In this document: piece by piece, positions 1-15,318 of the stretch
Layout: every line of letters begins with the position of its first letter
How positions within the stretch are numbered: the first letter of the stretch is position 1
Assembly (NCBI RefSeq): GCF_009996735.1
Contig: NZ_JAACYI010000003.1
Coordinates: forward strand, 1 to 64,000
From: Cellulomonas sp. APG4
GTDB taxonomy: Bacteria > Actinomycetota > Actinomycetes > Actinomycetales > Cellulomonadaceae
Direction: 5' to 3'
DNA: 64,000 nt
The notes under the pieces: model-generated
What the model was told of the DNA's origin: nothing
The model's database searches: none
What the model saw: only the letters and a program-made list of their open reading frames with translations
Made by a program: the position numbers and the translations under genes

Positions 1-90
1 TGGCGGGGGGGGGGGCGGTGGCGTCGGCGGGGGGGGGGGTGGCGGCGGCGGGGGCGGTGGCGTCGGCGGGGGCGGTGGCGTCGGCAGCGG
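1..90. repeat. Low-complexity G-rich tract encoding the E2 Ala/Pro linker
   Basis: Imperfect direct repeats of about 18 bp (units like GGCGGTGGCGTC on the plus strand) with three homopolymer G runs of 10-11 bases. Read on the minus strand it stays in frame and encodes ADATAP-type units interrupted by PPP. Such tracts slip during replication and during sequencing. Confidence 0.8.
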
Positions 91-448: not shown

Positions 449-449
449 C

Positions 450-2630
450 TCAGCCACCGAACCCCTCGACGACGCGGCGCAGGCCCGCCACCACCTCGTC
501 GGTCTTCGCGATCGCGGCCCGCTCGAGCACCTTGGAGATGCTCGGCGACGCCTCGCGGCCGGTGACCCGCTGCACGGGCTGGTCGAGCCAGTCGAAGAAT
601 CGTCGTTGGATCTCGTCCGAGAGCCAGCCGCCGTACGACGTGCCCACAGCCCCCTGCTCGACCACGAGGACGTTGCCCGTCTTGCGGATCGACTCCCCCA
701 CCGTCTGCCAGTCCAGGCTCGCGCGGTCGAGCCAGCGCAGGTCGACCACCTCGGCGTCGACACCGCTCGCCTCGACGGCCTCGAGGCTGTGACCCACCAT
801 GCTCAGGTAGGTCAGCACGGTCACGTCGGTCCCGGGGCGTCGCACGAGAGCGCGACCCACGGGCAGCTGGTAGTCGAGGTCGTCGACCGGCGCGGGGCCC
901 GTGGTGCCGTAGAGGTCCACGTGCTCGAGCACGAGCACCGGGTCGTCGAGCGCGAGCGCCGCGTTGAGCAGGCCCACGTAGTCGAACGGCGTCGACGGCG
1001 CGACGATCCGCCAGCCCGGTGCCGTCGCGAAGATGCCCGCGGGATCCATCGAGTGCTGCGAGCCGTAGCCCGTCCCGGCCGCGACCTTGGTCCGCAGCAC
1101 GAGCGGGACGGCGTTGTCCCCGCCGAACATGTGCCGCGCCTTGCCCACCTGGTTGAAGACCTGGTCGGCCGCGACCCAGAGGAAGTCGGGGTACATGAAC
1201 TCGACCACCGGCCGGAATCTCCCGTCGAGCGCCATCCCGCCGCCCAGGCCGAAGAACGCGTTCTCGCTGATCGGCGTCCCGAGCACGCGACCGGGGAAGG
1301 CATCGGGCAGACCCCTCGTCGCGCCGTTCGTCCCGCCACCCAGCCGGTGCACGTCCTCGCCGAGCACCACGACGCGCTCGTCGGCGGCCATGCGCCGTCC
1401 CATCACCCGCGCGACGGCTTCGATGAAGCGGGTCGGCGCGAGCTCTCCGCCGAACGTCGTCTCCTCCTCGGTGCGTGCACCCGCGACCTCGCTCAGGTCC
1501 CCGCGCACGCCCACGTCCACGAAGTCGGTCGACGGCCACAGCTCGGGCCGGATGCGGCGCACACCCGCCTTGGCGCCGGGCTCGGGCTCGAGGAGCGCAT
1601 CGACGACGGCGGTCATGGCCTCTTGGGCCTGGCGGCGGGCGCCCGCGGCTGTGGGCTCGTCGAGCAGGCCGCGCGCGGCCATCTCCCCCGCGACCCGGTC
1701 GAGCGGGTCGCGCGCGCGCCACCCGGCCTCCTCGTCCTTGGGCCGGTAGCCGAACGCGCTGCCCGGGTAGGGACCGTTCTGGTGGAAGAACCGGTACACC
1801 TCTGCCTCGACCACCGTCGGGCCCTCACCCGAGCGCATGTGCTCGACGGCTGCCTGCGTCGCGAGGTGCACCGCGAGCGGGTCCATCCCGTCCACGCGCC
1901 ACGCCGGGATCCCGAAGCCTGGACCGCGCCCCGAGAGCCGCGGCTCACCGGTGGCCTCGTCGACCCGGGTCGAGACCGCGTACAGGTTGTTCTCGATGAA
2001 GAAGCACAGCGGTACGTCCCACGCCGCCGTGAGGTTCATGCTCTCGAGCACCGACCCGATGTTCACGGCGCCGTCGCCGAAGTAGGTCACGGTCACGTCG
2101 TCGGTCCCGGCGTGCCGCTGGGCCCACGCGTTGCCGGCCGCGAGGGGCACGCCCCCGCCGACGATGGCGTTGGTGCCGAGCGCGCCCGCCTCGCGCCACT
2201 GGAGGTGCATCGACCCTCCGCGCCCGCGGCAGAAGCCCTCGGCGAGGCCGAGGATCTCGGCGAGCGTGCGGCGCAGCACGACGGCGACCTCGTCGGTGAC
2301 GAGCGCCGTCAGGTCGAGCCGGGGTGCGACGTGCGCGATCGCCTTCGCGAGGAACTGGTGGTGCCCGCGGTGCGAGCCGTTGACGCCGTCGGACGAGCGC
2401 AGCGCGAGCACGGAGCCGACGGCGCCGCCCTCCTGGCCGATGCTCGAGTGCGCCGGACCGTGGACCAGGCCCTGGCCGGCGAGCTCGAGGACCGTCTCCT
2501 CGAAGGCCCGGACCAGGTGCAGCTGGCCGAGCATCGTCGCGAGGAGGGCGGGATCGGCGGCGTCCCAGTCCTCCGGCGTGGTGGAGACCTCGACCCACGG
2601 GACGGCCGGCTCGAGCGGCGTGGTGCGCAC
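450..2630 (-). CDS. Thiamine-diphosphate 2-oxoacid dehydrogenase E1, fused alpha and beta subunits
   Basis: Decarboxylates a 2-oxoacid (or acetoin) and passes the acyl unit to the E2 encoded next. The 726-residue protein joins both E1 subunits. Residues 1-375 are the alpha half, with the ThDP motif starting GDGAVN at 185-190 and ending in the NN pair near 214. Residues about 398-726 are the beta half (GEDVHRLGG, SENAFFGLGGG). Most relatives encode the two halves separately. I chose the GTG at 2630 because AGGAGG lies 4 bases upstream; the frame stays open to 2768, but those 46 residues are basic and unlike the family. A promoter with TTGTCA (2705-2710) and TAGGCT (2681-2686) fits this start. 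Substrate unresolved: pyruvate, acetoin and branched-chain enzymes share these motifs. Confidence 0.9.
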   Translation of the reverse strand: MRTTPLEPAVPWVEVSTTPEDWDAADPALLATMLGQLHLVRAFEETVLELAGQGLVHGPAHSSIGQEGGAVGSVLALRSSDGVNGSHRGHHQFLAKAIAHVAPRLDLTALVTDEVAVVLRRTLAEILGLAEGFCRGRGGSMHLQWREAGALGTNAIVGGGVPLAAGNAWAQRHAGTDDVTVTYFGDGAVNIGSVLESMNLTAAWDVPLCFFIENNLYAVSTRVDEATGEPRLSGRGPGFGIPAWRVDGMDPLAVHLATQAAVEHMRSGEGPTVVEAEVYRFFHQNGPYPGSAFGYRPKDEEAGWRARDPLDRVAGEMAARGLLDEPTAAGARRQAQEAMTAVVDALLEPEPGAKAGVRRIRPELWPSTDFVDVGVRGDLSEVAGARTEEETTFGGELAPTRFIEAVARVMGRRMAADERVVVLGEDVHRLGGGTNGATRGLPDAFPGRVLGTPISENAFFGLGGGMALDGRFRPVVEFMYPDFLWVAADQVFNQVGKARHMFGGDNAVPLVLRTKVAAGTGYGSQHSMDPAGIFATAPGWRIVAPSTPFDYVGLLNAALALDDPVLVLEHVDLYGTTGPAPVDDLDYQLPVGRALVRRPGTDVTVLTYLSMVGHSLEAVEASGVDAEVVDLRWLDRASLDWQTVGESIRKTGNVLVVEQGAVGTSYGGWLSDEIQRRFFDWLDQPVQRVTGREASPSISKVLERAAIAKTDEVVAGLRRVVEGFGG

Positions 2631-2779
2631 GCATCCTCCTGGAGCTCGGCGACGGCACCCTCGCCGTCGCGGACCCTTGGAGCCTACGCGCCGATTGGAT
2701 ACAGTGACAAGCCTCTTGTTCGGCCTGCATGCATGCTTGACGAGGTTGACACGGTCTATCGGATACATGGAGGCGACTC
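2631..2779. promoter_or_regulatory. Divergent E1 / VOC promoter region with paired ATYGGATACA repeats
   Basis: For E1 (minus strand) a -35 TTGTCA at 2705-2710 and a -10 TAGGCT at 2681-2686 are 18 bp apart. The direct repeats ATTGGATACA (2694-2703) and ATCGGATACA (2758-2767) start exactly 64 bp apart, about six helical turns. The first lies inside the E1 promoter spacer; the second ends just before the VOC ribosome site (GGAGG, 2769-2773). A 10-bp perfect palindrome GCATGCATGC (2727-2736) sits midway. These are candidate operators for the GntR regulator encoded at 3343; this assignment is inference. The plus-strand promoter is not clear. Confidence 0.55.
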
Positions 2780-3313: not shown

Positions 3314-3342
3314 GCGGTGTCGCAGCAGAGCACGGAGCAGCC

Positions 3343-3999: not shown

Positions 4000-4019
4000 C
4001 GGGCACGGCCCCGCCCGGG

Positions 4020-4754
4020 TCAGACGCCCGCGGGACGGCCACCGAGGTACAGGCGGGACAGCTCGGGGTCGGCGAGCAGCTCGGGAGCGGGTCCGGAGAT
4101 GTGCACGCGGCCCAGGTCGAGCACGCAGCCCACGTCCGCCGCCTCGAGCGCGCGCCGCGCGTTCTGCTCGACCAGCAGCACCGCCGTGCCGTGGTCGCGC
4201 ATGCGCACGATCTGCTCGAACACCGTCGCGGTCGTCTTGGGGTCCAGGCCCATCGACGGCTCGTCCAGCAGCACGACCTTGGGCTCCATCATCAGCGAGC
4301 GGGCGAACTCGACCTGCTTCTGCTGACCACCGGACAGCAGCCCCGCGAGCTGCCGCCACCGGTCCCCCACGATCGGGAAGATCTCCTGGACGCGAGCGAC
4401 CCGCTCCTCGACCACCGCCTGGTCCCGCACGGTGTAGGCGCCCAGCCGCACGTTCTCCTCGACGGTCATCTCGGGGAAGACGCTGTGGCCCTGGAGCACG
4501 TGCGCGAGGCCCGCCGCGAGCATCTGCTGCGGGGTCCGGCCGGTCACGTCGTCGCCGGCCACCCGGATGGCGCCCGCCCGCGGCTGCAGCATGCCGCTCG
4601 CGACCTTGAGCACCGTGGACTTCCCCGCGCCGTTGGGTCCGACGAGGCACACGATCGTCGACGGCGGCACGTGCACCGAGAGCCCGCGCAGCACGAGGGC
4701 CGCGCGTCCGTAGCCGGCCTCGATGCCGTCGAGTGCGAGGAGCGGTTCAGACAC
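4020..4754 (-). CDS. livF: ABC transporter ATP-binding protein, LivF type
   Basis: Second of the two ATPases of a branched-chain-amino-acid-type (HAAT) importer; it powers the LivHM channel from the cytoplasm. In 244 residues it has Walker A GPNGAGKST at 39-47, signature LSGGQ at 140-144 and Walker B VVLLDEP at 160-166. I chose the GTG at 4754 because it starts VSEPLLALDG at the family N-terminus and overlaps the end of livG by 8 nt (GTG...TGA), a sign of translational coupling. It is the last gene of the five-gene livKHMGF operon and converges on the GntR gene. HAAT systems carry many ligands besides leucine (amides, urea, aromatic acids), so the symbol marks family, not substrate. Confidence 0.93.
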   Translation of the reverse strand: MSEPLLALDGIEAGYGRAALVLRGLSVHVPPSTIVCLVGPNGAGKSTVLKVASGMLQPRAGAIRVAGDDVTGRTPQQMLAAGLAHVLQGHSVFPEMTVEENVRLGAYTVRDQAVVEERVARVQEIFPIVGDRWRQLAGLLSGGQQKQVEFARSLMMEPKVVLLDEPSMGLDPKTTATVFEQIVRMRDHGTAVLLVEQNARRALEAADVGCVLDLGRVHISGPAPELLADPELSRLYLGGRPAGV

Positions 4755-5499
4755 CAAGGTAGGCCTCCAGGACGCGTGGGTCGGTCTGCACCTCGGCGGG
4801 CGCACCCTCGGCGATGGGTCGGCCCCGGTCGAAGACGACGACGTGGTCCGACAGGCTCATCACGAGGTCCATGTTGTGCTCGACGACGATGAACGTCCGG
4901 CCCTCGGCGTTGAGCTCGCGCACGAGGGCCGAGATGCGCCCGATCAGCGCCGGGTTCACGCCGCCCGCGGGCTCGTCGAGCATGACGATGCGCGGCTCGG
5001 CCATGAGCACGCCCGCGAGCTCGAGCAGCTTCTGCTGGCCGTAGGAGATGTTGCGCGCCTCGCTGTGCTCGAGGTGGTCGATGCCGACGCGCCGCAGCCA
5101 CCCGCGCGCGCGCTCGAGCGACTCCTCGTCGTCGGCCCGGCGCCAGAGGTCGGCAGCGGTCGAGCGCACGCCCACGAGCATGTTCTCCATCACCGTCATG
5201 CGTGGGAAGACGCGGCACACCTGGAAGCTGCGGCCCAGGCCGAGGCGCGCGATCCGGTCAGGTGTCGCGCGGCTCACGTCCCGGCCGTCGAGCGTCACCG
5301 TGCCGCGGTCGGCGCGGATCATCCCGGTGACGCAGTTGAAGAACGTCGTCTTGCCCGAGCCGTTGGGGCCGATGATCGCGTTGATCCGCCCGGGCTTGAA
5401 CTCGACGCTCGCGTCGTCGACCGCACGCACCCCGCCGAACGCCTTCGACAGCCCCCGGACGGTCAGCGCACCGCCGGTCACGGTCCCCGTCGCGGTCAT
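4747..5499 (-). CDS. livG: ABC transporter ATP-binding protein, LivG type
   Basis: First ATPase of the HAAT importer. The 250-residue protein has Walker A GPNGSGKTT at 44-52, an ABC signature of the LivG form (ISYGQQK) near 150 and Walker B MLDEP near 168. The ATG at 5499 is chosen because it gives the usual LivG N-terminus and overlaps the livM stop as ATGA. A longer open frame exists upstream but it only runs antisense-like through livM. It forms the nucleotide-binding dimer with LivF. Confidence 0.93.
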   Translation of the reverse strand: MTATGTVTGGALTVRGLSKAFGGVRAVDDASVEFKPGRINAIIGPNGSGKTTFFNCVTGMIRADRGTVTLDGRDVSRATPDRIARLGLGRSFQVCRVFPRMTVMENMLVGVRSTAADLWRRADDEESLERARGWLRRVGIDHLEHSEARNISYGQQKLLELAGVLMAEPRIVMLDEPAGGVNPALIGRISALVRELNAEGRTFIVVEHNMDLVMSLSDHVVVFDRGRPIAEGAPAEVQTDPRVLEAYLGV

Positions 5500-6647
5500 C
5501 GGACCCTCCCCACCCCGCCGGGTGCCACCGGCGCGTCGTCGTCGGGCGCGTCCTGCGTCCCGTCCAGGAGCTGCTGCGCACTGACCTCGCGGATCGAGGA
5601 CGCCTGCGGCCCGAACCGCGCGAACAGGCCCTTGACCGCGGGGATCACGCCCTCGGGCATGAACAGCACGACGAGTGCGAGCAGCAGCCCGGTCGCGACC
5701 AGGTGGAACTGCGTGTCGCCGAACTCCGCCTTGAAGAACTCGATCGCGAGGCCGACCACGATCGCCCCGAGCAACGGCCCGAAGAGCTCGCGGACCCCGC
5801 CCAGGAGCGCCATGAGCACCATGTACGCGCCCATGAGGATGGAGAACTGGAACACCGGGTCGAGGTCGCCGAACCACAGCGCGTACAGGGCGCCCGCGAG
5901 GCCGGTGAAGAACGCCGACCAGGCGAACGCGATGAGCTTGGCGCGGAACGTCGGGACGCCGAGCGCACGCGCCTTGTCCTCGTCCTCGCGCACCGCCTTG
6001 AGCCCCATGCCGAAGCGCGACCTGTCGATGCGCCACCACACGAGCAGCGCGAGCACGAGGGCCGCGACGTAGATGTAGTAGAAGACCTGGTGGTGCTCGG
6101 TCCGCATGAGCCCCTGGAACGCCCGCGGGACCATGAGGCCGGTGGAACCGCCCGTGAGCGAGGCCCAGCTCTGCGCGACGAGCAGCAGGATGAGCACGAA
6201 CGCGATGGTCACGATCACGAACGAGGCGCCGCGCACGCGCAGCGCCGCGACGCCCACCGGGATCGCGATGACGACGACGACCAGCGGGGCGAGCGCGAGG
6301 GCCAGGAAGGGCGACATGCCCGTGCGGTCGATGAGGATCGCGACTGCGTAGGCGCCGAGCCCGAAGTAGGCCGCGTGCCCGAGCGAGATGTACCCCGTGA
6401 ACCCGCCCATGAAGTTCCAGCCGGTCGCCATGAGGGCGTAGTTGAGGATCACGACGCCGGTCGAGAGCAGGTACCCGACCGACGTCGTCATCGGGAAGAC
6501 CAGCACCACGACGGCGAGGGCCACGAGCAGGCCGACGCCGACGAGTCGGCGCGGGTCGCGGAGCAGCGGCGGGCGCGCGGCCCGGTTCCCCGCGGTGCGC
6601 TCGGCCGCGGGCGCGGCCGCCCGCGTGGTCTCAGAAGCGTTGCGCAA
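5496..6647 (-). CDS. livM: Branched-chain-amino-acid-type ABC permease, LivM type
   Basis: Membrane channel subunit of the HAAT importer, 383 residues. A polar N-terminus of about 35 residues is followed by roughly ten hydrophobic segments, with the LivM hallmark GLNYALMATGWNFMGG-like stretch near residues 68-83 and GHAAYFGLGAYAVA shortly after. The start is a TTG at 6647: GGAGG lies 5 bases upstream and no better start follows before the first membrane segment. It overlaps livH by 17 nt. A C-terminal tail of about 45 residues after the last membrane segment is longer than in many homologues and rich in Asp. Confidence 0.92.
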   Translation of the reverse strand: MRNASETTRAAAPAAERTAGNRAARPPLLRDPRRLVGVGLLVALAVVVLVFPMTTSVGYLLSTGVVILNYALMATGWNFMGGFTGYISLGHAAYFGLGAYAVAILIDRTGMSPFLALALAPLVVVVIAIPVGVAALRVRGASFVIVTIAFVLILLLVAQSWASLTGGSTGLMVPRAFQGLMRTEHHQVFYYIYVAALVLALLVWWRIDRSRFGMGLKAVREDEDKARALGVPTFRAKLIAFAWSAFFTGLAGALYALWFGDLDPVFQFSILMGAYMVLMALLGGVRELFGPLLGAIVVGLAIEFFKAEFGDTQFHLVATGLLLALVVLFMPEGVIPAVKGLFARFGPQASSIREVSAQQLLDGTQDAPDDDAPVAPGGVGRVR

Positions 6648-7515
6648 GGCGACCTCCGAAGAATCCCTGCGGCCGCACCATCAGGGTGACGAAGAGGGCC
6701 ACGTAGAAGACGGTCTGGGCCCAGGTGGTCCCGAGCGGCACCTGGAGGAGCGACTGCGTGACGCCCAGCAGCATCGCCGCGACGGCCGCACCCGGGATCG
6801 ACCCGAGGCCGCCGACGACGATGATCGCCATGAGTGGGCCGATCCAGTGCCAGTGGAGCGACGGGTAGATCGTCGCATCGAGCGCCAGGGCGGTGCCACC
6901 GACCGCCGCGGTGGCCAGCCCCAGGCCGAAGCCGTAGCTGGCCACCTTGGCGGTGTCGATGCCGACGAGCTCGGCGGCCTCCTTGTGCTGGATCGTGGCG
7001 CGCAGCGCCTGCCCGAAGGAGGTCTTCTTGAGCACGAACCAGAGGCTGCCGAGCGCGAGCGCGGCGAGGCCGAACGCGACGAGCTTCACGACGGCGACCT
7101 GCGCCCCCAGGACCTCGATGCTCGAGGCCCCGTAGTCCAGCCGGATCCTGCGCTGCACCCCGGTGAAGGTGAAGCCGAGCATCCCCTCGATCACGAGCGC
7201 GATCGCGAAGGTCAGCAGCACCGACATCATCGTCAGCGACGCGGGCTTGAGCCGGGTGATGAGCAGCCGCTGCATCAGCACGCCGATGCCGAAGAACAGC
7301 GGCACGGTGATGAGGAGCGAGATCATCGGGTCCAGCCCCGTCTGCACGGTGAAGAACCAGGCCAGGTAGCCCGCGAGGATGAGGAACGCCGAGTGGGCGA
7401 TCATCACCACGCGCATGACTCCGAAGTAGAGCGTCAGACCCGAGGCCAGCAGGGCGTACAGACCACCCAGCAGGATGCCCAGGATCAGGCTCTGCAGCAG
7501 CAGTGCGGAGGACAT
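6631..7515 (-). CDS. livH: Branched-chain-amino-acid-type ABC permease, LivH type
   Basis: Partner channel subunit of LivM, 294 residues with about eight membrane segments. Family stretches are visible: GLYALLASGLTLYFGVMRVV near residues 17-36 and the late GGLGSIPGAAVAA loop that contacts the ATPases. ATG at 7515, only 9 nt after the stop of the binding-protein gene, which keeps all five liv genes in one transcript. Confidence 0.93.
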   Translation of the reverse strand: MSSALLLQSLILGILLGGLYALLASGLTLYFGVMRVVMIAHSAFLILAGYLAWFFTVQTGLDPMISLLITVPLFFGIGVLMQRLLITRLKPASLTMMSVLLTFAIALVIEGMLGFTFTGVQRRIRLDYGASSIEVLGAQVAVVKLVAFGLAALALGSLWFVLKKTSFGQALRATIQHKEAAELVGIDTAKVASYGFGLGLATAAVGGTALALDATIYPSLHWHWIGPLMAIIVVGGLGSIPGAAVAAMLLGVTQSLLQVPLGTTWAQTVFYVALFVTLMVRPQGFFGGRLAQRF

Positions 7516-7524
7516 GGGCTCAGC

Positions 7525-8769
7525 TCACCACTCCGGCTTGACGGCGATGAACTCGGCTGTCGCCTGGTCCTCGGGGAGCACGATCTCGGGCGAGCCGTCC
7601 ACGTACTGCTGGATGAAGTGCGCGCCGTTCGGCCGGCCCGCCTCGTCCCAGCGCAGGTCACCGACGATGGTCGCGACCTCGTTCTCGTGGAGCCAGTCGA
7701 CGAGCTCGGTCTGGCAGTCACCCTGCTCGGCGCAGCCCACGGCCTCGACGGCCGCGGTGACGACCTGACCCACCGTGTACGCGTTGGCCTCGTCCTCGGT
7801 GGGCTCGCGGCCCTCCTTCTCCATGACCATCTCGACGAAGTTCGCGTTGCCCTCGTACTCGGCCGCGGGCGAGTAGCCGTTCGGCGTCATGATCCCGTCC
7901 ACCTTGTCCGCACCGATGGCCTCGACGAACTCAGGCAGCGTCGGGGCGGTGGTGAACGCCGCCATGCGCGGCTGGTAGCCGAGCTGACGCACCGCGAGGA
8001 TCATGTTGACGCCGTCCTGGTACTGCGTGCCGCCCACGAGCAGGTCGGCGTCGGCCTCGGCGAGCTGCGCCGCGATGCCGCTGAAGTCGGTCGTGTTCGG
8101 CGGGTAGATCTCGTCGACGAGGATCTCGACCCCCGCTTCCTCGAGCTTGGCCTTGAGACCGTTGGCCGCACCCATCGCGAGCGGGTCGTCCATCGAGGCG
8201 AACGAGGCCGTCTCGGGACGCTCGCCGTCGGGCAGCGACATCAGGTGGTCGAAGAGGTAGTCGTAGTGCGTGTCCGCCACGGCGGGGGCGGCGTAGAAGA
8301 GGTTGCGGTAGCCCGCGGCGAAGATGTCCTCGGCCGCACCCGCGGGTTCGACGAAGAGCATCCCGTACTCCTCCGCGACGCGCGCCGAGGGCAGCACGAG
8401 CCGGCTCGAGAAGGGGCCGAAGATGAGGTCGACCTCCTCCTGGGTGATGAGCGCCTCGTAGTCGGCCACCACGCGGTCGGCGTTCGACTGGTCGTCGAGG
8501 ATGACGAGCTCGACCTGGCGCCCGAGCAGGCCGCCGGCCTCGTTGATCTCGTCGCGCCAGATCTCGTAGCCGTTCTGCACGCCCTTGCCGGGCTCGGAGA
8601 AGTCGCCGGTCAACGGCAGCGAGATGCCGATGCGGATCGGGCCGTCGTCGTCGCCCTCCTCCTCGGCGCCTCCACCGCCGCCCGAGGAGCACGCGGTGAG
8701 CAGGAGCGCGGCTCCTGCGACCACGGCCGCGCCACGGGCGCGGCTCCGGGTGAGTCGTCGTGCGGACAT
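7525..8769 (-). CDS. livK: ABC transporter substrate-binding lipoprotein, LivK type (periplasmic-binding-protein fold I)
   Basis: Extracytoplasmic receptor that gives the liv importer its specificity. 414 residues; an Arg-rich n-region and hydrophobic stretch end in a lipobox LLTAC, so Cys27 is the predicted lipidated residue, followed by a Gly-rich and acidic tether. The mature part begins GPIRIGISLPLTGDFSEPG, typical of Peripla_BP_6 proteins. ATG 8769 has AGGAGG 5-6 bases upstream. It is first in the operon, behind a promoter and a LacI-type operator. The ligand is unknown; the downstream enzymes at 11.4-15.2 kb share the operator and probably act on what this protein binds. Confidence 0.93.
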   Translation of the reverse strand: MSARRLTRSRARGAAVVAGAALLLTACSSGGGGGAEEEGDDDGPIRIGISLPLTGDFSEPGKGVQNGYEIWRDEINEAGGLLGRQVELVILDDQSNADRVVADYEALITQEEVDLIFGPFSSRLVLPSARVAEEYGMLFVEPAGAAEDIFAAGYRNLFYAAPAVADTHYDYLFDHLMSLPDGERPETASFASMDDPLAMGAANGLKAKLEEAGVEILVDEIYPPNTTDFSGIAAQLAEADADLLVGGTQYQDGVNMILAVRQLGYQPRMAAFTTAPTLPEFVEAIGADKVDGIMTPNGYSPAAEYEGNANFVEMVMEKEGREPTEDEANAYTVGQVVTAAVEAVGCAEQGDCQTELVDWLHENEVATIVGDLRWDEAGRPNGAHFIQQYVDGSPEIVLPEDQATAEFIAVKPEW

Positions 8770-8847
8770 GGGACCCTCCTACGTCGTCATTGACGGGTTC
8801 ACGGTGCCATAGAGGGCGAGGAGCACTTCCAGGGGGATGAACGGACC

Positions 8848-8859
8848 GCAATCGTTTGC
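8848..8859. promoter_or_regulatory. LacI-type operator in the liv promoter
   Basis: GCAATCGTTTGC, or GCAAACGATTGC on the coding side, matches the usual LacI/GalR operator pattern GCAANCGNTTGC in full. It lies 14 bp downstream of the liv -10 box, where a bound repressor would block transcript initiation or escape. Confidence 0.75.
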
Positions 8860-8872
8860 CCTCGATGCCGCG

Positions 8873-8901
8873 ACGCTATAGGAGCAACCCGGCCCCGTCA
8901 A
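8873..8901 (-). promoter_or_regulatory. Promoter of the livKHMGF operon
   Basis: On the minus strand: -35 TTGACG (8896-8901), 17-bp spacer, -10 TAGCGT (8873-8878). This is a close match to the main actinobacterial sigma consensus and leaves a leader of about 95 nt before livK. Confidence 0.7.
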
Positions 8902-9006
8902 CGCCTCCGCCCACCCCGTGACCCCAGCGTGATCTGGGGCGTCGCGCGCGCTCACAAGGCTGGGATAGCGCTGTCCGATCTGCCCTCGGGCGCCCCGTGT
9001 CGCCCC

Positions 9007-9036
9007 TTGACCGCACACCCGGCCCGTCTCTAGGGT
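9007..9036 (+). promoter_or_regulatory. Promoter of the MFS gene
   Basis: -35 TTGACC (9007-9012), 18-bp spacer, -10 TAGGGT (9031-9036). The predicted transcript start (about 9043) falls inside the operator at 9039-9052. Confidence 0.7.
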
Positions 9037-9038
9037 CG

Positions 9039-9052
9039 TGCAATCGCTTGCA
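9039..9052. promoter_or_regulatory. LacI-type operator at the MFS promoter
   Basis: TGCAATCGCTTGCA: 14 bp with 5-bp perfect arms around a 4-bp centre, core GCAATCGCTTGC. It covers the predicted +1 site of the MFS promoter. Confidence 0.78.
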
Positions 9053-9073
9053 GCAGACGTCGTCAGGAGCGCG

Positions 9074-9109
9074 ATGCCCAGGTCACGTGCACGGCGTCGT
9101 CGTGGCTGA
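9074..9109 (+). CDS. Possible 11-codon Arg-rich leader peptide
   Basis: ATG at 9074 with AGGAG 4 bases upstream, the best ribosome site in the leader, opens a short frame that reads MPRSRARRRRG and stops at 9107-9109. Six of 11 codons are Arg, including three CGT in a row. Its end overlaps the GTG at 9102 proposed for the MFS gene (GTGGCTGA). It may couple or attenuate translation of that gene, or be chance. No homologue is expected to be detectable at this length. Confidence 0.35.
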   Translation: MPRSRARRRRG

Positions 9110-10271
9110 GGCCCGGCCCCTGCGCGTGCTGCACGCCGCGACCTTCCTGAGCTCGTTCGACCGGCTCCTCGTCGCACCCCTCCTGCTGCCGATCGCGCGC
9201 GACCTCGACGCCGAGGTCGCCGAGGTCGCGCTCATGGCCACGGTCTACCTCGTCGGGTACGGCCTCATGCAGGTGGTCTGGGGGCTCGTGTCGGACCGGC
9301 TCGGACGCGTGCGCACGATGCGCCTCGCGATGGTCGTCGCGGGGGTCGCTGGCGTCGCGACCGCACTCTCACCGGGCCTGGCCGCACTGGTCGTGGCACG
9401 CCTCGTCGCAGGCGGGGCGTACGCCGCCGCGGTGCCCGGCGCGATCACGTACATCGGCGACACGGTCCCGGCCGTCCGTCGGCACGCGCCTCTCACCGAC
9501 CTCATGACGGCGACGGCGCTCGGCATGGCGGCGGCGACCCTCGTCGGGGCGCTCCTGGGTGACCTGCTGAGCTGGAGGGTCGCGTTCGGGGTGCCCGCGG
9601 TCGCCGTCCTCGCCGTCTCGCTCGTGCTGCGCGGCGTGCCCGAGCCGTCCGGTCCCGACGCGTCACGGCCGGCGAGCCCACCGGGGCTGCGGGTCCAGGC
9701 GCACCGCGTGCGCGAGGTGCTCACGCACCGGCGCGCGCTGCTCGTGCTGGTGCTCGCGGGCGGCGAGGGCATGGTGCTGCTCGGCGTCATCACCTACCTG
9801 CCGACGGTGCTCCAGGCCGGCGGCACCGGCACCGCGGCGTCGGGTGCCGCGACCGCCGTGTACGGCCTCGCGATCGTCGCCTTCGCGCGCCTGGTGAAGG
9901 CTCTGTCCGCGCGGGTCTCCCCCGCCCGGCTGATCGCCGTCGGAGGTGCGATGGGCCTCGGGTCCTACGGCGCGCTGCTGGTCGACCGCGGCCTGCCGGG
10001 CGTGGTCACGGCATCGGTCCTGCTCGCGGGCGCGTGGGCGTTCATGCACTCGACGATGCAGAACTGGGCGACCCAGGTGGTGCCGACCCTGCGGGCGACG
10101 GTCGTGAGCCTGTTCGCCTCGGCGCTCTTCCTCGGCAGCGCCGCGTGGACGGCGCTCGGGGTGCCGTTCGTCGCGCGCGGCGACCTCGTGCCGTACCTCC
10201 TCGCGGGACTGCTCACCGCACTCGTGCTCACCGCCGTCGCGACCTGGACCCGGCACCGCTTGCCCGGGTGA
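9102..10271 (+). CDS. Major facilitator superfamily transporter
   Basis: 389 residues with about 12 membrane segments; motif A of the family is present after the second segment (GLVSDRLGRVRTMR). It would move a small solute across the membrane, import or export unknown. The start is uncertain: GTG 9102 overlaps the leader ORF stop, GTG 9087 is in the same frame with a weak AGG nearby, and both give a short N-terminus before the first segment. It is divergent from the liv operon, converges on lacI (22 bp apart), and shares the LacI operator with both. A second transporter under the same operator could take up a related compound or release a dead-end product. Confidence 0.85.
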   Translation: MAEARPLRVLHAATFLSSFDRLLVAPLLLPIARDLDAEVAEVALMATVYLVGYGLMQVVWGLVSDRLGRVRTMRLAMVVAGVAGVATALSPGLAALVVARLVAGGAYAAAVPGAITYIGDTVPAVRRHAPLTDLMTATALGMAAATLVGALLGDLLSWRVAFGVPAVAVLAVSLVLRGVPEPSGPDASRPASPPGLRVQAHRVREVLTHRRALLVLVLAGGEGMVLLGVITYLPTVLQAGGTGTAASGAATAVYGLAIVAFARLVKALSARVSPARLIAVGGAMGLGSYGALLVDRGLPGVVTASVLLAGAWAFMHSTMQNWATQVVPTLRATVVSLFASALFLGSAAWTALGVPFVARGDLVPYLLAGLLTALVLTAVATWTRHRLPG

Positions 10272-10293
10272 GCGCCCGTCGGGCCCTGGCGGC

Positions 10294-11313
10294 TCAGCTC
10301 GCCGGTGCCGCGGTCGACCCTCGCACCACGAGGTCCACGGGCAGGGTCGTGGTGGTCGGTGCGGACGAGTCGCCCCCGACCCAGCGGATGAGCAGGCGCG
10401 CCGCCTCGGCCCCGATCTGCGCGTGGGGCACCCGCACCGTGGTGAGGGGTGGAGAGAGCTTGTCGACGAACGGCATGTCGTTGTAGCCGACGACGCTCAT
10501 GTCCTGCGGGCAGCGCAGCCCGCGCTCACGCAGCACGTCGAGCACACCGATCGCGATCTGGTCGTTGCCCGCGACCACGGCGGTGGGCGGCGGTCCTGCA
10601 CGGTCGAGCAGCGCCCGCGCCGCGCGGGCACCCTCGTCGACGGCGTACGCGCGGCACTCCTCGACCATGTCGGTCGCGTCCGGTCCGCACAGCTCGGCCA
10701 CGAGGTGCCGGAACGCACGCGCCCGGTCCGCACCGGTCGAGAGCGAGGACGGCCCCGCGAGGTGCGCGATGCGCCGGTGGCCCAGGCCCACGAGGTGACG
10801 TACGGCCTGCTCGATGCCGTCCCTGTCGTCACCGGTCACGGCCGGGAGCCGCGCCTGGTCGTCCCGTCGGTTGATGAGCACCATCGGCAGGCCCTGGGCC
10901 GCGGCCTCGCGCACCGCCGCGTCGTCGCGCAGCGCCGACGCGATGATCAGGCCGTCCACCTGGCGCGCGCGCAGCGTCTCGAAGCTCTCACGCTCGCGCT
11001 CCGCGTCGTTGTCGGTGTCCGCGATCAGGCACGTGTAGCCCGAGCGCGAGAGCACCTCCTCCGCGCCGCGGACGATCGGCGGGAAGAGGGGGTTCGACAG
11101 GTCCGGCACGACGATGCCGACCATCGTGGTGCGGTTCGTCTTGAGGCCGCGGGCCATCGAGTTGGGCCGGTACGCGAGCGCCTTGGCGGCCGCCTGCACG
11201 CGCCGCACGGTCTGCTCGCTCACCAGGGCCTGCGTCGCGGGGTTGAGCGCACGCGACGCCGTGCCCGGGTGCACGCCCGCGCGCTCGGCCACCTGCTTGA
11301 GCGTGGCGGTCAC
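10294..11313 (-). CDS. LacI-family transcriptional regulator
   Basis: 339 residues. Residues about 3-50 are the LacI helix-turn-helix (TLKQVAERAGVHPGTASRAL) with the hinge helix ending near AYRPNSMARGL; the rest is a periplasmic-binding-protein-like effector domain. The recognition helix is of the kind that reads GCAANCGNTTGC operators, and four such sites lie at the promoters of this cluster, two in front of its own operon, so autoregulation is likely. GTG start at 11313; a GGGGGAGG tract is 11 bases upstream, rather far. It is the last gene of the operon from 15189, 99 bp after the aldehyde dehydrogenase. The effector is unknown; family members mostly bind sugars but some bind nucleosides or acids. 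Confidence 0.93.
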   Translation of the reverse strand: MTATLKQVAERAGVHPGTASRALNPATQALVSEQTVRRVQAAAKALAYRPNSMARGLKTNRTTMVGIVVPDLSNPLFPPIVRGAEEVLSRSGYTCLIADTDNDAERERESFETLRARQVDGLIIASALRDDAAVREAAAQGLPMVLINRRDDQARLPAVTGDDRDGIEQAVRHLVGLGHRRIAHLAGPSSLSTGADRARAFRHLVAELCGPDATDMVEECRAYAVDEGARAARALLDRAGPPPTAVVAGNDQIAIGVLDVLRERGLRCPQDMSVVGYNDMPFVDKLSPPLTTVRVPHAQIGAEAARLLIRWVGGDSSAPTTTTLPVDLVVRGSTAAPAS

Positions 11314-11412
11314 GTCCCGTCGCGCCTCCCCCTGCGTCGCGGCCCGCTCCGCGGGCTCCCCGGCCGGCCCGGGACGCCCGTCAGCGTAGACGAGCGAGGC
11401 CCGCCCACGACG

Positions 11413-12867
11413 TCACCACTCCACGGCGACGTACTTGGACTCGGTGTACTCGAGCATGCCCTCGTGGCCGCCCTCGCGTCCCAGCCCCGACTGCTTGACC
11501 CCGCCGAACGGGGCCGCGGGGTCGGAGACCACACCGCGGTTGAGGCCCACCATGCCGGCCTCGAGGGCCTCGCTCATGCGCAGCCCGCGCGCGAGGTCCC
11601 GCGTGAACACGTAGGCGACGAGGCCGTACTCGGTGCGGTTGGCGAGCCGCACGGCCTCCTCGTCGGAGTCGAACCGGACGACGGGTGCGACCGGCCCGAA
11701 GATCTCCTCCTCGAGGATGCGAGAGGTCGGCGGGACGTCGCTGAGCACCGTCGGCGGGTAGAAGAACCCCCGGCCCTCGACCGCCTCACCACCCGTGACC
11801 ACGCGGGCGCCGTCGTCGACCGCCGCGGCCACGAGCTCGCTCACCTTGTCGACGGCGGCCTGGTTGACGAGCGGCCCGACGGCGGCGTCCTCGAGGCCCG
11901 GCCCGACGCTCAGCCCGGCCATGGCCTCGCCGAGACGGCGGGTGAACTCGTCCGCGACCGCGCGGTGGACGTACATGCGGTTGGCGGCCGTGCAGGCCTC
12001 GCCGCCGTTGCGCATCTTGGCGAGCATCGCGCCCTCGACCGCGACGTCGAGGTCGGCGTCCTCGAGCACGACGAGCGGGGCGTTGCCGCCCAGCTCCATC
12101 GAGCACGAGACCACCTGCTGCGCGGCGAGGCCGAGCAGCGAGCGGCCCACCTCGGTCGAGCCGGTGAACGACAGCTTGCGCACACGCGGGTCCGCGAGCA
12201 CGGCCGAGGCGACGTCTCCCGACCTCCGCGAGGGGAGCACGTTCACGACGCCGTCGGGCACCCCGGCCTCGGAGAGCAGCGCCCCGAGCGCCAGCGCCGT
12301 GAGCGGGGTCTCGGACGCGGGCTTGAGCACCACCGTGCACCCGGCCGCGAGGGCCGGGCCGATCTTGCGGGTCGCCATCGCCGCCGGGAAGTTCCAGGGG
12401 GTGATGAGCAGCGCGATGCCGATCGGCTGCCGCAGCACCATGATCCGGTTCGTGCCCGCGGGCGCCGTGCGCAGCTCGCCCGAGAGCCGCACGGCCTCCT
12501 CGGCGTACCAGCGGAAGAACTCGGCGGCGTAGCGCACCTCGCCGCGCGCGTCCGCGAGGGCCTTGCCGTTCTCGCGCACCATGAGCTCGGCGAGCTGCTC
12601 GGTGCGCTCGGTCATGAGCTCGAAGGCACGCCGGAGGATCTCGCCACGTTCGCGCGGTGCGGTGCGCGCCCACGCGGCGGCGGCCCCGTCGGCCGCGTCG
12701 ACGCAGCGCAGGGCGTCCTCCACCGTGCCGTTCGCGACGTCGGCGATGGGCAGGCCCGTCGCCGGGTCGATGACGTCGAACCGCCCGCCGTCGCCCGCCC
12801 CGACCCAGGCGCCGCCCACGTACAGGTCGGTCGGCACACGCAGGCCCGTCACCAGGTCGTCGATCAT
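11413..12867 (-). CDS. NAD(P)-dependent aldehyde dehydrogenase, succinate-semialdehyde-dehydrogenase-like
   Basis: 484 residues, full length. Oxidises an aldehyde to its acid. Seen: Asn159 in PWNFP, the cofactor loop FTGSTEVGR at 234-242, general base Glu258 in MELGG and catalytic Cys292 in GEACTAANR. The context resembles GabD more than betaine-aldehyde enzymes, so a semialdehyde is the probable substrate. The ATG at 12867 has GAGGAGG 5-6 bases upstream; an open extension upstream lacks family sequence. It follows the M24-like gene after 129 bp and precedes lacI. In the proposed pathway it would oxidise the semialdehyde that the beta-hydroxyacid dehydrogenase forms, or with which that enzyme competes. 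Confidence 0.92.
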   Translation of the reverse strand: MIDDLVTGLRVPTDLYVGGAWVGAGDGGRFDVIDPATGLPIADVANGTVEDALRCVDAADGAAAAWARTAPRERGEILRRAFELMTERTEQLAELMVRENGKALADARGEVRYAAEFFRWYAEEAVRLSGELRTAPAGTNRIMVLRQPIGIALLITPWNFPAAMATRKIGPALAAGCTVVLKPASETPLTALALGALLSEAGVPDGVVNVLPSRRSGDVASAVLADPRVRKLSFTGSTEVGRSLLGLAAQQVVSCSMELGGNAPLVVLEDADLDVAVEGAMLAKMRNGGEACTAANRMYVHRAVADEFTRRLGEAMAGLSVGPGLEDAAVGPLVNQAAVDKVSELVAAAVDDGARVVTGGEAVEGRGFFYPPTVLSDVPPTSRILEEEIFGPVAPVVRFDSDEEAVRLANRTEYGLVAYVFTRDLARGLRMSEALEAGMVGLNRGVVSDPAAPFGGVKQSGLGREGGHEGMLEYTESKYVAVEW

Positions 12868-12996
12868 CGTTCCTCCTCGCTGGGGCGGCGAGCGCCCTGT
12901 CCAGCCCGCCCACGCGTCGACGACGCGTCGGTGCGAGCAGGTCCATCGTGGCCCGCCCGGACGGCGCCTGTCAGCCACCCGGGCGCCGTGCGGCGG

Positions 12997-14241
12997 TCAG
13001 TACGGGTTCGTGACGAAGAGCTCCTGGGCGGGGAAGAGCGTGATCACCTCGCACCCGTCGGCGGTCACGACCACCTCCTCCTCGATCCGTGCGGCCGAGA
13101 ACCCGTCCGAGGCCGGGCAGTAGGTCTCGAGCGCGAAGACCATGCCCTCCTTGATCTCCATCGGGTTCTCGAGCGAGACGAGGCGCGAGATGATGGGCCG
13201 CTCGTGCAGACCGAGGCCGAGGCCGTGCCCGAACTGCAGGCCGAACGCGGCCATCTCGGACGCGAAGCCGAACTCCTCGGCGCGCGGCCACAGCCGGGCC
13301 ACCTGGTCCGTCGTCACGCCCGGGCGGATCACGTCGATCGCCGCGTCGATCCACTCGCGCGCCTTGACGTACGCGTCCACCTGCGACGGCGTCGAGCGCC
13401 CGACGACGAACGTGCGGTAGTAGCAGGTCCGGTAGCCCATGTACGACTGGATGATGTCGAAGAACGCCTGGTCCCCGGGACGGATGAGCCTGTCGGTGAA
13501 GTTGTGGGGGTGCGGGTTGCAGCGCTCGCCCGAGACCGCGTTGATGGCCTCGACGTCGTCCGAGCCCATGTCGTAGAGCTGCTTGTTCGCTATCGCGACG
13601 AGCTCGTTCTCGCGGATGCCGGGCTTGAGCGCCTCGGTGAGGGTCTGGTAGACGCCGTCGACCATCGCCGCGGCCGTCGTGAGGAGCGCGATCTCGTCGC
13701 GCGACTTGATCTTGCGGGCGTCGAGCATCACCTGCTGACCGTCGCGCACGTCGAGGCCCACACGCTGCAGCTCGAGCACCATGGGGAGCTCGGCGATGTC
13801 CACGCCGAGCGGCATGTCTCGCACGCCGGCGCGCGTGAGCTCGTCGACCAGCTCGGCCACGGCCGAGCGCACGAGGCCGGCGTCGGGGTGCACGGCCCCG
13901 CGCAGGCCAAGCATCCCGGCGCGTGAGTTGCCGGGACGCAGCCACGGCGCGTAGATCTCGTGGTGCTTCGCGGCCGAGCCGAAGTCCCAGACGATGGGCT
14001 CCTGGCCGCGCATCAGCAGCGTGTACCGGGCGACCTTGTCGCGCGCCCACTCGCCGATCATCGTCGACGTCGTGTAGCGGATGTTGTTGATGTCGAACAG
14101 CAGGAGCGCCCCGAGCTCGGACGCCTCGAGCGCGGCGCGCGCGCGTGCGAGGCGGTACTCGCGGAGGCGGTCGAAGCTCACGCGCTCCTCGAAGTCGACC
14201 GCCATGCGGCCCGGGGACGGGGTCAGGCTCATGTGCACCAT
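12997..14241 (-). CDS. M24-family (pita-bread fold) hydrolase, creatinase / aminopeptidase-P / DddP-like
   Basis: 414 residues: a creatinase-N-like domain (about 1-165) and a pita-bread catalytic domain (about 180-414). Of the five metal ligands of M24 peptidases, Asp262, His339, Glu372 and Glu387 are in place, but the second Asp is Cys273 (GYRTCYYRT where peptidases have GYxSDxTRT). The family contains non-peptidases: creatinase, which works without metal, the DMSP lyase DddP, and ectoine hydrolase. A small-molecule amide, amidine or betaine substrate is therefore more likely than a peptide. ATG 14241 has AGGAGG 8 bases upstream, inside the end of the preceding gene 3 nt away. Under LacI-operator control with transporter and aldehyde dehydrogenase. 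Confidence 0.85.
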   Translation of the reverse strand: MVHMSLTPSPGRMAVDFEERVSFDRLREYRLARARAALEASELGALLLFDINNIRYTTSTMIGEWARDKVARYTLLMRGQEPIVWDFGSAAKHHEIYAPWLRPGNSRAGMLGLRGAVHPDAGLVRSAVAELVDELTRAGVRDMPLGVDIAELPMVLELQRVGLDVRDGQQVMLDARKIKSRDEIALLTTAAAMVDGVYQTLTEALKPGIRENELVAIANKQLYDMGSDDVEAINAVSGERCNPHPHNFTDRLIRPGDQAFFDIIQSYMGYRTCYYRTFVVGRSTPSQVDAYVKAREWIDAAIDVIRPGVTTDQVARLWPRAEEFGFASEMAAFGLQFGHGLGLGLHERPIISRLVSLENPMEIKEGMVFALETYCPASDGFSAARIEEEVVVTADGCEVITLFPAQELFVTNPY

Positions 14242-14244
14242 CGG

Positions 14245-15189
14245 TCAGCCCTCCTGGGCGGGCACGAGGCCCTCGGTCACCTGCGCGTCCTCGGGCACGA
14301 GCTCGAGGCCCGCCGCGCGCGCCTGCAGCTCGAGGAGGACGGCGAAGTCCTCCGTGGTCCGCCCCTCGGCGACCGCGGCGCCCACCAGCTGGTGCACGAG
14401 CGCCGCGACCGGCATCGGGGCGTCGAGCCGGCGGCCCGCGGCGAGCCCGAGGTCGAAATCCTTGCGCAGCAGCACCGCGGTGAACGTGGGCGTGAGGTCG
14501 AGGTTGACGAAGGCCGGCGTCTTGTAGCGCGTGAACGTCGAGCCCATCACGGAGTCGTTGAGGAACGCGAGGAAGTCGTGGCGCGCGATGCCGCCCTTCT
14601 CCGCGAGCACGGTGATCTCGGCCATCGACTGGGTCACCACGCCGAGGAACAGGTTGTGGCAGATCTTGACCAGCCGCGCCCGCTCACCGTCACCCACGTA
14701 GGTGACCGCACGCGCGATCGCCTCGAGCTGCGGGAGCACGGCGTCGTGGACCTCGCGCGGCCCCGACGTGACCATGGTGAGCCGCCCGGCGTCGATGACC
14801 TTCGCGTTGCCCGACACGGGTGCGGCGAGCAGCCGGACCCCGCGCTCGGCGGCGAGGGCGCGCAGCTCGTCCCCCTGCGTGACGTCGGCGGTGGTCGAGT
14901 CCACCACCACCGGTGGCACCACGTCCCCGGTCAGCAGACCCCCGGGACCGGTGAGGACGGCGCGCAGGTCCGCCGCCGTGGAGACCATCGTGTGGACGAC
15001 GTCGCGGTCCGCGAGCTCGACCGGGCTGTCGACCACGGAAGCACCGAGCGGCTCGAGCGCCTCAGCCTTGGCCCGGGTGCGGTTGTAGACCGCCACGTCG
15101 TAGCCCGCGGCCAGCAGGCGCGCCGCCATCGCGGCGCCCATGCGGCCCGCGCCGATCCAGCCGATCCGGGGCGTGCTCTCGTCGGTCAT
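14245..15189 (-). CDS. NAD(P)-dependent beta-hydroxyacid dehydrogenase family protein
   Basis: 314 residues of the 3-hydroxyisobutyrate / 6-phosphogluconate-dehydrogenase-like family. Rossmann motif GAGRMG at 13-18, substrate loop APVSGN near 124, catalytic Lys175 with Asn179 (LVKICHN) and the C-terminal RKDFDLGL helix are present. The enzyme interconverts a 3- or 4-hydroxyacid and its semialdehyde. Two adjacent ATGs (15192, 15189) exist; GGAG is 4 or 7 bases upstream, so I prefer 15189. First gene of an operon with the M24-like hydrolase, aldehyde dehydrogenase and LacI, behind a promoter flanked by two LacI-type operators. Confidence 0.88.
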   Translation of the reverse strand: MTDESTPRIGWIGAGRMGAAMAARLLAAGYDVAVYNRTRAKAEALEPLGASVVDSPVELADRDVVHTMVSTAADLRAVLTGPGGLLTGDVVPPVVVDSTTADVTQGDELRALAAERGVRLLAAPVSGNAKVIDAGRLTMVTSGPREVHDAVLPQLEAIARAVTYVGDGERARLVKICHNLFLGVVTQSMAEITVLAEKGGIARHDFLAFLNDSVMGSTFTRYKTPAFVNLDLTPTFTAVLLRKDFDLGLAAGRRLDAPMPVAALVHQLVGAAVAEGRTTEDFAVLLELQARAAGLELVPEDAQVTEGLVPAQEG

Positions 15190-15203
15190 CATGCGGCTCC
15201 ATT

Positions 15204-15215
15204 GCAAGCGATTGC
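15204..15215. promoter_or_regulatory. LacI-type operator, downstream copy
   Basis: GCAAGCGATTGC, a full match to GCAANCGNTTGC and the reverse complement of the MFS operator core. It lies 15 bp upstream of the start codon at 15189, next to the ribosome site. Confidence 0.78.
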
Positions 15216-15235
15216 GGCGACAGTTCGTGCGGGCC

Positions 15236-15264
15236 AGTCTGGCAAGCAACGCGCTGCAATGCAA
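15236..15264 (-). promoter_or_regulatory. Probable promoter of the hydroxyacid-dehydrogenase operon
   Basis: On the minus strand: -35 TTGCAT (15259-15264), 17-bp spacer, -10 CAGACT (15236-15241). The -10 is one base from TAnnnT. The -35 overlaps the upstream operator copy. Confidence 0.5.
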
Positions 15265-15272
15265 TCCTTTGC
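15261..15272. promoter_or_regulatory. LacI-type operator, upstream copy
   Basis: GCAATCCTTTGC: outer arms GCAA/TTGC kept, centre one base off CG. It begins 57 bp from the downstream copy, so one repressor tetramer or two dimers could bracket the promoter. Confidence 0.6.
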
Positions 15273-15318
15273 GGTCCGAGACGCGCTCGTTCCCGTCGAG
15301 GCCCGGACGTGGTCCGGC

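Follow-up and report, generated by a model that had tools for sequence, protein, structure and literature searches.

A probable local LacI-family regulon around an unusual M24-family enzyme in Cellulomonas sp. APG4

We analysed a stretch of 64,000 nucleotides from Cellulomonas sp. APG4 (contig NZ_JAACYI010000003.1, our C33:1-64000, hereafter the window; source genome 3.74 Mb in 48 contigs, 99.98% complete) and found that four palindromic operator-like sites connect the gene of a LacI-family repressor with a Liv-type importer, an MFS transporter and three enzymes, namely a dehydrogenase of the 3-hydroxyisobutyrate dehydrogenase (HIBADH) family, an M24-family enzyme and an aldehyde dehydrogenase (ALDH) close to succinate-semialdehyde dehydrogenases (SSADHs). 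Judged by comparative standards, this regulon is real. We consider it rather likely that these genes form a local autoregulated catabolic regulon, probably one that degrades an amide-like acid via a succinate-semialdehyde-like intermediate; its regulation is well supported, whereas every chemical step and the substrate itself are conjecture.

Operator sites, their conservation and the repressor

Domain scans confirm the genes named in the initial annotation, namely a Liv-type operon, an MFS gene, a hydroxyacid dehydrogenase, an M24 enzyme, an aldehyde dehydrogenase and lacI. The HIBADH, M24, ALDH and lacI genes read leftward, as do livK to livF from the first operator (O1), and the MFS gene reads rightward from the second (O2). 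Our site search agrees with that annotation on four sites with GCAA and TTGC arms, three of which match GCAANCGNTTGC exactly (Table 1), and the coordinates confirm the 57 bp between O3 and O4. The sites are even palindromes with a central CG in three of four cases, O4 having CC, and their centres lie 17.5-84.5 bp from the gene starts (start codons taken at 8769 for livK, 9102 for MFS and 15192 for HIBADH), three of them within 30-140 bp. All four thus lie upstream of gene starts. A scan of 8600-15500 showed neither a sigma-70-like promoter nor a terminator-like site, so that the bracketing of a promoter by O3 and O4 is an inference.

Allowing up to two mismatches, the pattern occurs 24 times in the window against 25.7 expected by chance, so that the loose pattern on its own proves nothing. 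Genome-wide there are only four exact matches, and three fall within the 6.4 kb from O1 to O4, where about 0.007 would be expected by proportion; the backward-read control pattern occurs eight times genome-wide. The motif is therefore concentrated at the cluster rather than enriched across the genome. The fourth exact site (C8:11623) lies about 100 bp before a gene for an SBP_bac_1-type binding protein with a different lacI close by, for which reason it is probably the operator of another repressor. Using a matrix trained on 43 exact sites upstream of module genes in loci L038-L114, from which the window, Georgenia and Occultella were excluded and in which the core columns are invariant by construction because only exact matches were used, we find exactly O1 to O4 at the top of the 64 kb (16.3-19.8 bits, the next at 5.7), whereas the maximum over 20 simulated windows (first-order Markov) was 11.7 bits. 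By this score O4 is as good as the other sites despite its mismatch. Additionally, a model of 41 distinct sites matched only the four operator places in the window at E<=10. Run on the whole genome at the same threshold it gave a single match, at 8848 (E 0.61), which is weak evidence for the lack of further targets because the model is short and the filtered search listed one of the four known sites. Genome rarity, the matrix ranking and the permuted half-site counts given below lead us to reject a chance motif.

Upon comparison with other genomes, we find that sites and enzymes recur together. From a scan of genome contigs we kept the best 80 of 247 matches to M24 relatives, 69-92% identical to the window M24, and counted module partners at set identity limits; contig ends cut many of these loci. 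HIBADH is present in 53 of the 80, E1-alpha of a 2-oxoacid-dehydrogenase-type complex in 51, LacI in 47, E1-beta in 44, ALDH in 30 and LivK in 23. Restricted to loci no shorter than 20 kb (32 loci), the corresponding numbers are 24, 21, 25, 21, 18 and 14, and 29 of these loci hold at least one of HIBADH, ALDH and E1. The exact palindrome occurs 66 times in the 80 loci, whereas 11 permuted half-sites add up to 21 occurrences. Of the 66, 47 fall in the 47 loci where LacI was also hit (28 loci; permuted half-sites 19 together, 0-6 each) and 19 in the other 33 (13 loci; 2 together, 0-1 each). When the 47 LacI-hit loci are taken with the window, L118, L135 and L139, 40 of 50 exact sites fall between 60 bp inside and 350 bp before the start of a module gene; the other ten lie away from module starts, some adjoining TRAP, TauE, FrsA-like or TonB-type genes.

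The nearest M24 relatives among the genome contigs scanned are those of Georgenia sp. SYP-B2076 (92%) and of two Occultella species (86-87%), and the layout is kept in Occultella. As in the window, the MFS-livK intergenic region of both species contains two exact sites, and the MFS homologue (54-55% identity) is divergent from livK; upstream of HIBADH both have a pair of sites with one mismatch each, spaced 58 bp. In Georgenia (L035) there are two exact sites and no LacI hit alongside. Furthermore, a Streptomyces plasmid groups LacI, HIBADH, M24, ALDH, a VOC protein, a fused E1 (67-73%), E2 and importer genes. The proposal of one local regulon made of lacI, two transporters and three enzymes is thus supported by the recurrence of the sites and of the LacI clade with M24 in distant taxa; the gene set first listed stands, and is incomplete in that a 2-oxoacid-dehydrogenase-type E1 also recurs with M24.

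The repressor belongs to the LacI family by its PF00356 (43.4 bits, cut-off 27) and PF13377 (140.1 bits, cut-off 26.5) domains. The source genome holds 25 further LacI-like matches (26 with the window's own), up to 43% identical and one of them reading through an in-frame stop. Because these paralogs reach 43% and the relatives compared 38-50%, identity alone cannot prove orthology. In a midpoint-rooted FastTree tree of the window LacI, 56 LacIs from M24 loci and 20 of the 25 paralogs, 54 of the 56 cluster with the window LacI (support 0.945) and none of the 20 paralogs falls inside. This clade spans actinobacteria, chloroflexi-type bacteria and proteobacteria. The two LacIs outside it are second LacIs of their loci (L067 and L139), and four loci (L071, L074, L080 and L096) have two LacIs each inside it.

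The initial annotation read O3 and O4 as a looping pair, which we do not find supported. The E. coli LacI has a C-terminal tetramerisation helix. The window LacI (339 aa) ends five residues past its Peripla_BP_3 match (171-334), which leaves no room for such a helix; we therefore set looping by a LacI tetramer aside as unsupported, and two dimers flanking the promoter would be the simpler reading. The 57 bp correspond to about 5.4 helical turns at 10.5 bp per turn, and the pairing may matter in some other way. Among 21 site pairs 50-140 bp apart, 12 are spaced 56-58 bp (window, L035, L036, L037, L062, L071) or 67-70 bp (L042, L054, L063, L069, L070, L118), and the other nine 61 to 131 bp; some of these loci are from sister species, and some pairs stand before livK rather than HIBADH or M24. 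The two classes are about one helical turn apart, both near half-integral turns (57/10.5 = 5.4; 68/10.5 = 6.5). Georgenia (L035) and Occultella (L036, L037) likewise have pairs of 56-58 bp upstream of HIBADH, the distal Georgenia site being weak at 9.2 bits; the pairs of L069, L071 and L118 also contain one or two weak sites. The LacI-family survey gives spacing peaks of 13, 22 and 32 bp instead (PMC4052901).

We propose that, in the absence of inducer, LacI dimers on O1, O2 and O3/O4 would keep expression of the liv importer, of MFS and of the HIBADH-M24-ALDH-lacI operon low, and that a compound of the pathway would free the operators. With lacI placed last in the operon that it is proposed to repress, the response would be self-limiting. 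Such an arrangement resembles the local LacI-family catabolic regulons of Ravcheev et al. 2014 (PMC4052901), which likewise show an even central-CG palindrome near gene starts, a small set of transport and catabolic genes and the repressor inside the set. Unlike those, the window's regulon would control a HAAT-type importer and acid-processing enzymes, with no recognisable sugar pathway; in that survey, carbohydrate metabolism is the target of 176 of the 182 groups to which a pathway was assigned (PMC4052901).

The M24 enzyme, its partners and the proposed chemistry

The M24 enzyme is most similar, in sequence and in fold and over nearly its whole length, to the dimethylsulfoniopropionate (DMSP) lyase DddP, but is only 23% identical to it. 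DddP is its best curated match (118.6 bits, cut-off 600), and DddP structures (4rzy, 4s00, 4s01, 4b28) are its best solved matches, followed by Xaa-Pro peptidases. The predicted structure (from 39 sequences; pLDDT 86.6, pTM 0.86; residues 1-14 and 238-246 below 50) matches DddP at TM scores of 0.77-0.79, Xaa-Pro dipeptidases at about 0.65-0.76, the ectoine hydrolase DoeA at 0.73-0.75 and creatinase at 0.69-0.72. The fold is thus common to the enzyme and to the small-molecule M24 hydrolases creatinase and DoeA (0.69-0.75 on the query), whereas identity to these is 16-21% and the two DoeA models score far below cut-off (63.2 of 613 and 63.3 of 575 bits).

Canonical M24 metallopeptidases have five metal ligands, D, D, H, E and E. 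We observe that the second Asp is replaced by Cys273 in all 111 rows of our M24 alignment (109 distinct sequences, the window gene entering twice and rows below 80% length left out), whereas D262, H339, E372 and E387 are kept; in this the enzyme departs from canonical M24 metallopeptidases. Those plasmid relatives that were checked have the Cys as well, as do two relatives from haloarchaea (37-39% identity). The codons of the motif GYRTCYYRT lie at 13411-13437 on the minus strand. A second, more distant M24 (33%) in a proteobacterial metagenome-assembled genome (MAG; G296) has Asp at this position. Two DddP residues altered in solved variants, according to the structure titles, align with other residues here: D377 with H346 (His in 97 and Trp in 14 of 111) and Y366 with F333 (Phe in 111 of 111). 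H244 and H246 are invariant in the 111 rows; together with H346 we take them to be the positions of the M24 hydrolase histidines, of which the haloarchaeal relatives retain H244 alone. These residues speak for the mechanism of a hydrolase and against that of DddP. Enzymology has a direct target in the invariant metal-site Cys, in a gene currently annotated merely as a peptidase in many genomes, for example on plasmids.

The ALDH scores best of all models with the SSADH model TIGR01780, below its cut-off (570.1 against 646.35 bits), and seven of its eight closest solved relatives are named SSADH, the best being 3jz4 (E 1.3e-147), GabD of E. coli. Two arginines, R167 and R286, which we take to be the carboxylate-binding positions of SSADH, are each conserved in 37 of 40 rows. 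The HIBADH carries the Pfam domains of its family and Lys176 in 62 of 62 rows; it scores 140.1 bits with TIGR01692 (cut-off 291.6), below every NCBIfam cut-off listed, and its nearest solved relatives are 6PGDH-like proteins, 2-hydroxymethylglutarate dehydrogenase, N-PAC and tartronate-semialdehyde reductase. The relatives of both enzymes suggest a C4-C5 semialdehyde acid. Of the initial proposal of hydrolysis to a semialdehyde, the semialdehyde end is therefore plausible, the ALDH being nearest to SSADHs.

A fused E1 also lies in the window, outside the range covered by the initial annotation, and probably belongs to the same pathway. It is 78-80% conserved in Georgenia and both Occultella species, the O. 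aeris copy reading through one in-frame TGA. In Occultella it shares a contig with M24 and follows the Liv genes at a distance of a few kb. E1 is found near M24 in 13 of 15 longer stretches from the window's class, six at 65-75% and seven at 34-42% identity to the window E1; in one set of M24 loci most E1 matches are 32-44% identical, with L010 at 71%. Because more distant stretches of the class hold M24 and E1 but lack a close HIBADH or ALDH, these two proteins, M24 and E1, may form the core, with the remainder being substrate-specific.

As for transport, a Peripla_BP_6 binding protein, a BPD_transp_2 permease and two ATPases (PF00005, 105.3 and 105.1 bits) mark the importer as HAAT, and the solved relatives of LivK are mostly amino-acid or amide binders of the general amino-acid type. 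Under our preferred scheme the imported solute would probably be an amide- or amino-acid-like acid, cleaved by M24 as a C-N hydrolase. One product would be an omega-hydroxy acid, which HIBADH would convert to a succinate-semialdehyde-like aldehyde and ALDH to a dicarboxylate; the other part would yield a 2-oxoacid or alpha-hydroxyketone and, via the E1 complex, an acyl-CoA. Since LacI effectors are usually sugars (PMC4052901) and sugar-type ABC genes accompany M24 on plasmids of the Roseobacter group, a polyol-like solute or a hydroxy acid is also possible. A scan of 121 of 365 filtered neighbour open reading frames (ORFs), whose lists still contain some antisense frames, pointed to no substrate (TauE 5, DctP 4, Amidohydro_2 4, FrsA-like 3 and BKACE 2 members). 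Stretches marked by operators in Propylenella (G300) and in two MAGs from proteobacteria (G296, G297) likewise gave no clear pathway; they hold TonB receptors, molybdenum hydroxylases, TRAP genes and a second M24, several of these names being a reading of translations.

On a wider scale, we put at even chances the existence of a widespread undescribed pathway around a new M24 class with Cys for the metal-ligand Asp. Its fuller form would consist of M24, E1/E2, SSADH-like ALDH and HIBADH, controlled in actinobacteria, chloroflexi-type bacteria and proteobacteria by LacIs of one orthologous clade, and there would be a distant haloarchaeal version. No description of it was found in the NCBIfam and Pfam scans or in a search of open-access papers. 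If true, the pathway could supply genes for orphan activities such as pantothenase. As regulator, operators and enzymes travel together across phyla, one growth or binding experiment in a culturable relative of Occultella or Georgenia could name the substrate for many genomes.

Competing explanations

Two schemes fit the enzyme set, the omega-hydroxy-acid route with amide hydrolysis and 2-oxoacid oxidation described above and an acetoin-type cleavage of a hydroxyketone. In the latter, M24 and the dehydrogenase would make an alpha-hydroxyketone acid, E1/E2 and CoA would split it into acetyl-CoA and a carboxylated aldehyde, and ALDH would oxidise the aldehyde to a dicarboxylate. We regard this as unlikely, though the best of the alternatives. 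Acetoin dehydrogenase operons contain E1, E2 and an aldehyde dehydrogenase, and the window's relatives similarly group E1-alpha, E1-beta, E2 and ALDH: M24, E1-alpha, E1-beta, ALDH and E2 are consecutive on Roseobacter-group plasmids and in a proteobacterial MAG. Additionally, a relative's E1-beta passes the cut-off of the pyruvate dehydrogenase (PDH) E1-beta subfamily (PRK09212, 341.9 against 321), near which acetoin dehydrogenases presumably belong, and short-chain dehydrogenases/reductases (SDRs) closest to acetoin reductase adjoin M24 (below cut-off in L101, and annotated so in another stretch). However, to our knowledge M24 and HIBADH are not part of acetoin operons, and here both are present and the ALDH is SSADH-like. 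The window's fused E1 passes no cut-off, plain pyruvate or another 2-oxoacid would serve equally well, and no known compound fits.

Pantothenate catabolism would assign M24 as pantothenase, HIBADH as pantoate 4-dehydrogenase, ALDH as aldopantoate dehydrogenase and E1/E2 as 2-oxoisovalerate dehydrogenase. It is the only pathway we know of with amide hydrolysis, an omega-hydroxy acid, a C4-type semialdehyde and a 2-oxoacid dehydrogenase in series. The pantothenase protein was still called unknown in 2023 (PMC10393543). We nevertheless find this reading improbable: no gene resembling dimethylmalate dehydrogenase or concerned with beta-alanine is among the recurring neighbours or families listed (best 25 of 106 and 25 of 73; 121 ORFs), PDH structures match the E1-beta of a relative with higher scores than 2-oxoisovalerate dehydrogenases do, and some M24 stretches have E1 without HIBADH or ALDH.

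Very doubtful is the explanation that the sites belong to another LacI paralog or to a generic LacI motif, their link to the window LacI being coincidental. The 25 other LacI-like matches, the fourth exact site near a different lacI and the central-CG palindrome, which is the family norm (1173 of 1303 regulators, PMC4052901), would allow it, but three of the four exact genome sites are at the window cluster, and the sites and the LacI clade co-recur across phyla. That M24 is DddP or DoeA and the cluster degrades DMSP or ectoine, both candidates of the initial annotation, is scarcely credible and both identities are rejected, since DddP, although the best NCBIfam and PDB match, and DoeA score far below cut-off and the D377 and Y366 positions and the metal-ligand Asp are changed as described.

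Several observations count against the favoured reading of an autoregulated regulon degrading an amide-like acid. With regard to regulation, O3 is just 17.5 bp from its gene start, outside the usual 30-140 bp. Cross-binding by other repressors is possible, as central-CG palindromes are typical of the family and the genome holds the further LacI-like matches. In 13 loci, 19 exact sites occur although no LacI was hit; truncation by contig ends or a lacI located elsewhere, as in Georgenia L035, may account for them. The window E1 has no operator, with no match to the pattern at up to two mismatches in 1-8576, and MFS is linked to the cluster in Occultella only, with a weaker homologue in L137. 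With regard to chemistry, none of HIBADH, M24 and ALDH reaches an NCBIfam cut-off among the models listed (for ALDH, the best 25 of 43), sugar-type LacI effectors suit an amide substrate poorly, and the 14 Trp rows at H346 and the badly predicted residues 238-246 weaken the argument for a hydrolase. Loci L128-L134 and L142 (M24 56-61%) have E1 and no close HIBADH or ALDH was found there, so these two enzymes are not essential to the M24 role in those loci. Finally, the M24 family is patchy, with matches in 42 of 296 genomes of the window's class at E<=1e-60 (own genome counted), and because lineages differ in transporter (Liv, TRAP, sugar ABC) a single substrate for all of them is not assured.

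Gene inventory and observations in other genomes

The features of the window are collected in Table 1. Beyond the importer genes, 450-3999 holds the fused E1 together with genes for a VOC-like protein and for a regulator of GntR type, with model scores below cut-off, and no LacI operator; E1 with VOC is also found on Streptomyces and Paenarthrobacter plasmids.

Table 1. Operators and genes of the proposed regulon and its neighbourhood in the window
Feature	Position	Strand	Details
Operator O1	8848..8859	.	GCAATCGTTTGC, exact match to GCAANCGNTTGC; centre 84.5 bp upstream of livK; matrix 18.1 bits, rank 2
Operator O2	9039..9052	.	14-bp palindrome TGCAATCGCTTGCA enclosing exact match GCAATCGCTTGC at 9040-9051; centre 56.5 bp upstream of MFS start; matrix 19.8 bits, rank 1
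Operator O3 (proximal)	15204..15215	.	GCAAGCGATTGC, exact; centre 17.5 bp upstream of HIBADH start; matrix 16.3 bits, rank 4
Operator O4 (distal)	15261..15272	.	GCAATCCTTTGC, one mismatch; 57 bp from O3; centre 74.5 bp upstream of HIBADH start; matrix 17.1 bits, rank 3
HIBADH-family (3-hydroxyisobutyrate / beta-hydroxyacid) dehydrogenase, first operon gene	14245..15192	-	PF03446, PF14833
M24-family enzyme	12997..14241	-	PF00557; invariant Cys273 in motif YRTCYYR
SSADH-like aldehyde dehydrogenase (ALDH)	11413..12867, alternative longer start 12978	-	PF00171
LacI-family repressor, last gene of the operon putatively under its control	10294..11313	-	PF00356, PF13377
MFS transporter	9102..10271	+	PF07690
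LivK-like (HAAT) solute-binding protein	7525..8769	-	PF13458, 185.3 bits
LivH-like permease	6631..7515	-	PF02653, 88.4 bits
LivM-like permease	5496..6647	-	UrtC/LivM models, below cut-off
LivG-like ATPase	4747..5499	-	PF00005 and PF12399 above cut-offs
LivF-like ATPase	4020..4754	-	PF00005 above cut-off
Fused E1 alpha/beta, 2-oxoacid-dehydrogenase type	450..2768	-	E1 models, below cut-off

In other genomes, a TauE/SafE-type permease recurs near M24 (L056, L060, L061, L078, L097, L099, L113), with an operator alongside in L060 and L099. Haloarchaeal plasmids (L125, L126) carry M24 relatives at 37-39%, and the one in Haloferax mediterranei adjoins E1 alpha/beta; a gene annotated as SSADH and another for an NAD(P)-dependent oxidoreductase are close by. 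According to its gene table, a plasmid of Paenarthrobacter sp. R1 (L122) carries RidA, M24, an NAD(P)-dependent oxidoreductase, an SDR and lpdA; a few kb away is a flavin reductase with a prediction as the sulfonamide-resistance protein SulR. In the proteobacterial MAG G296, 11 GCAAWCGWTTGC sites fall within about 37 kb (C51:34570-71934, L186-L188), out of 13 genome-wide and with none for the backward control. Going by the translations, several of them named by reading and ten scanned with NCBIfam and ten with Pfam, these sites adjoin apparent TonB receptors, two molybdenum-hydroxylase pairs, TRAP genes, the second M24 and a pair of an HMGL-like protein and a cytidylyltransferase.

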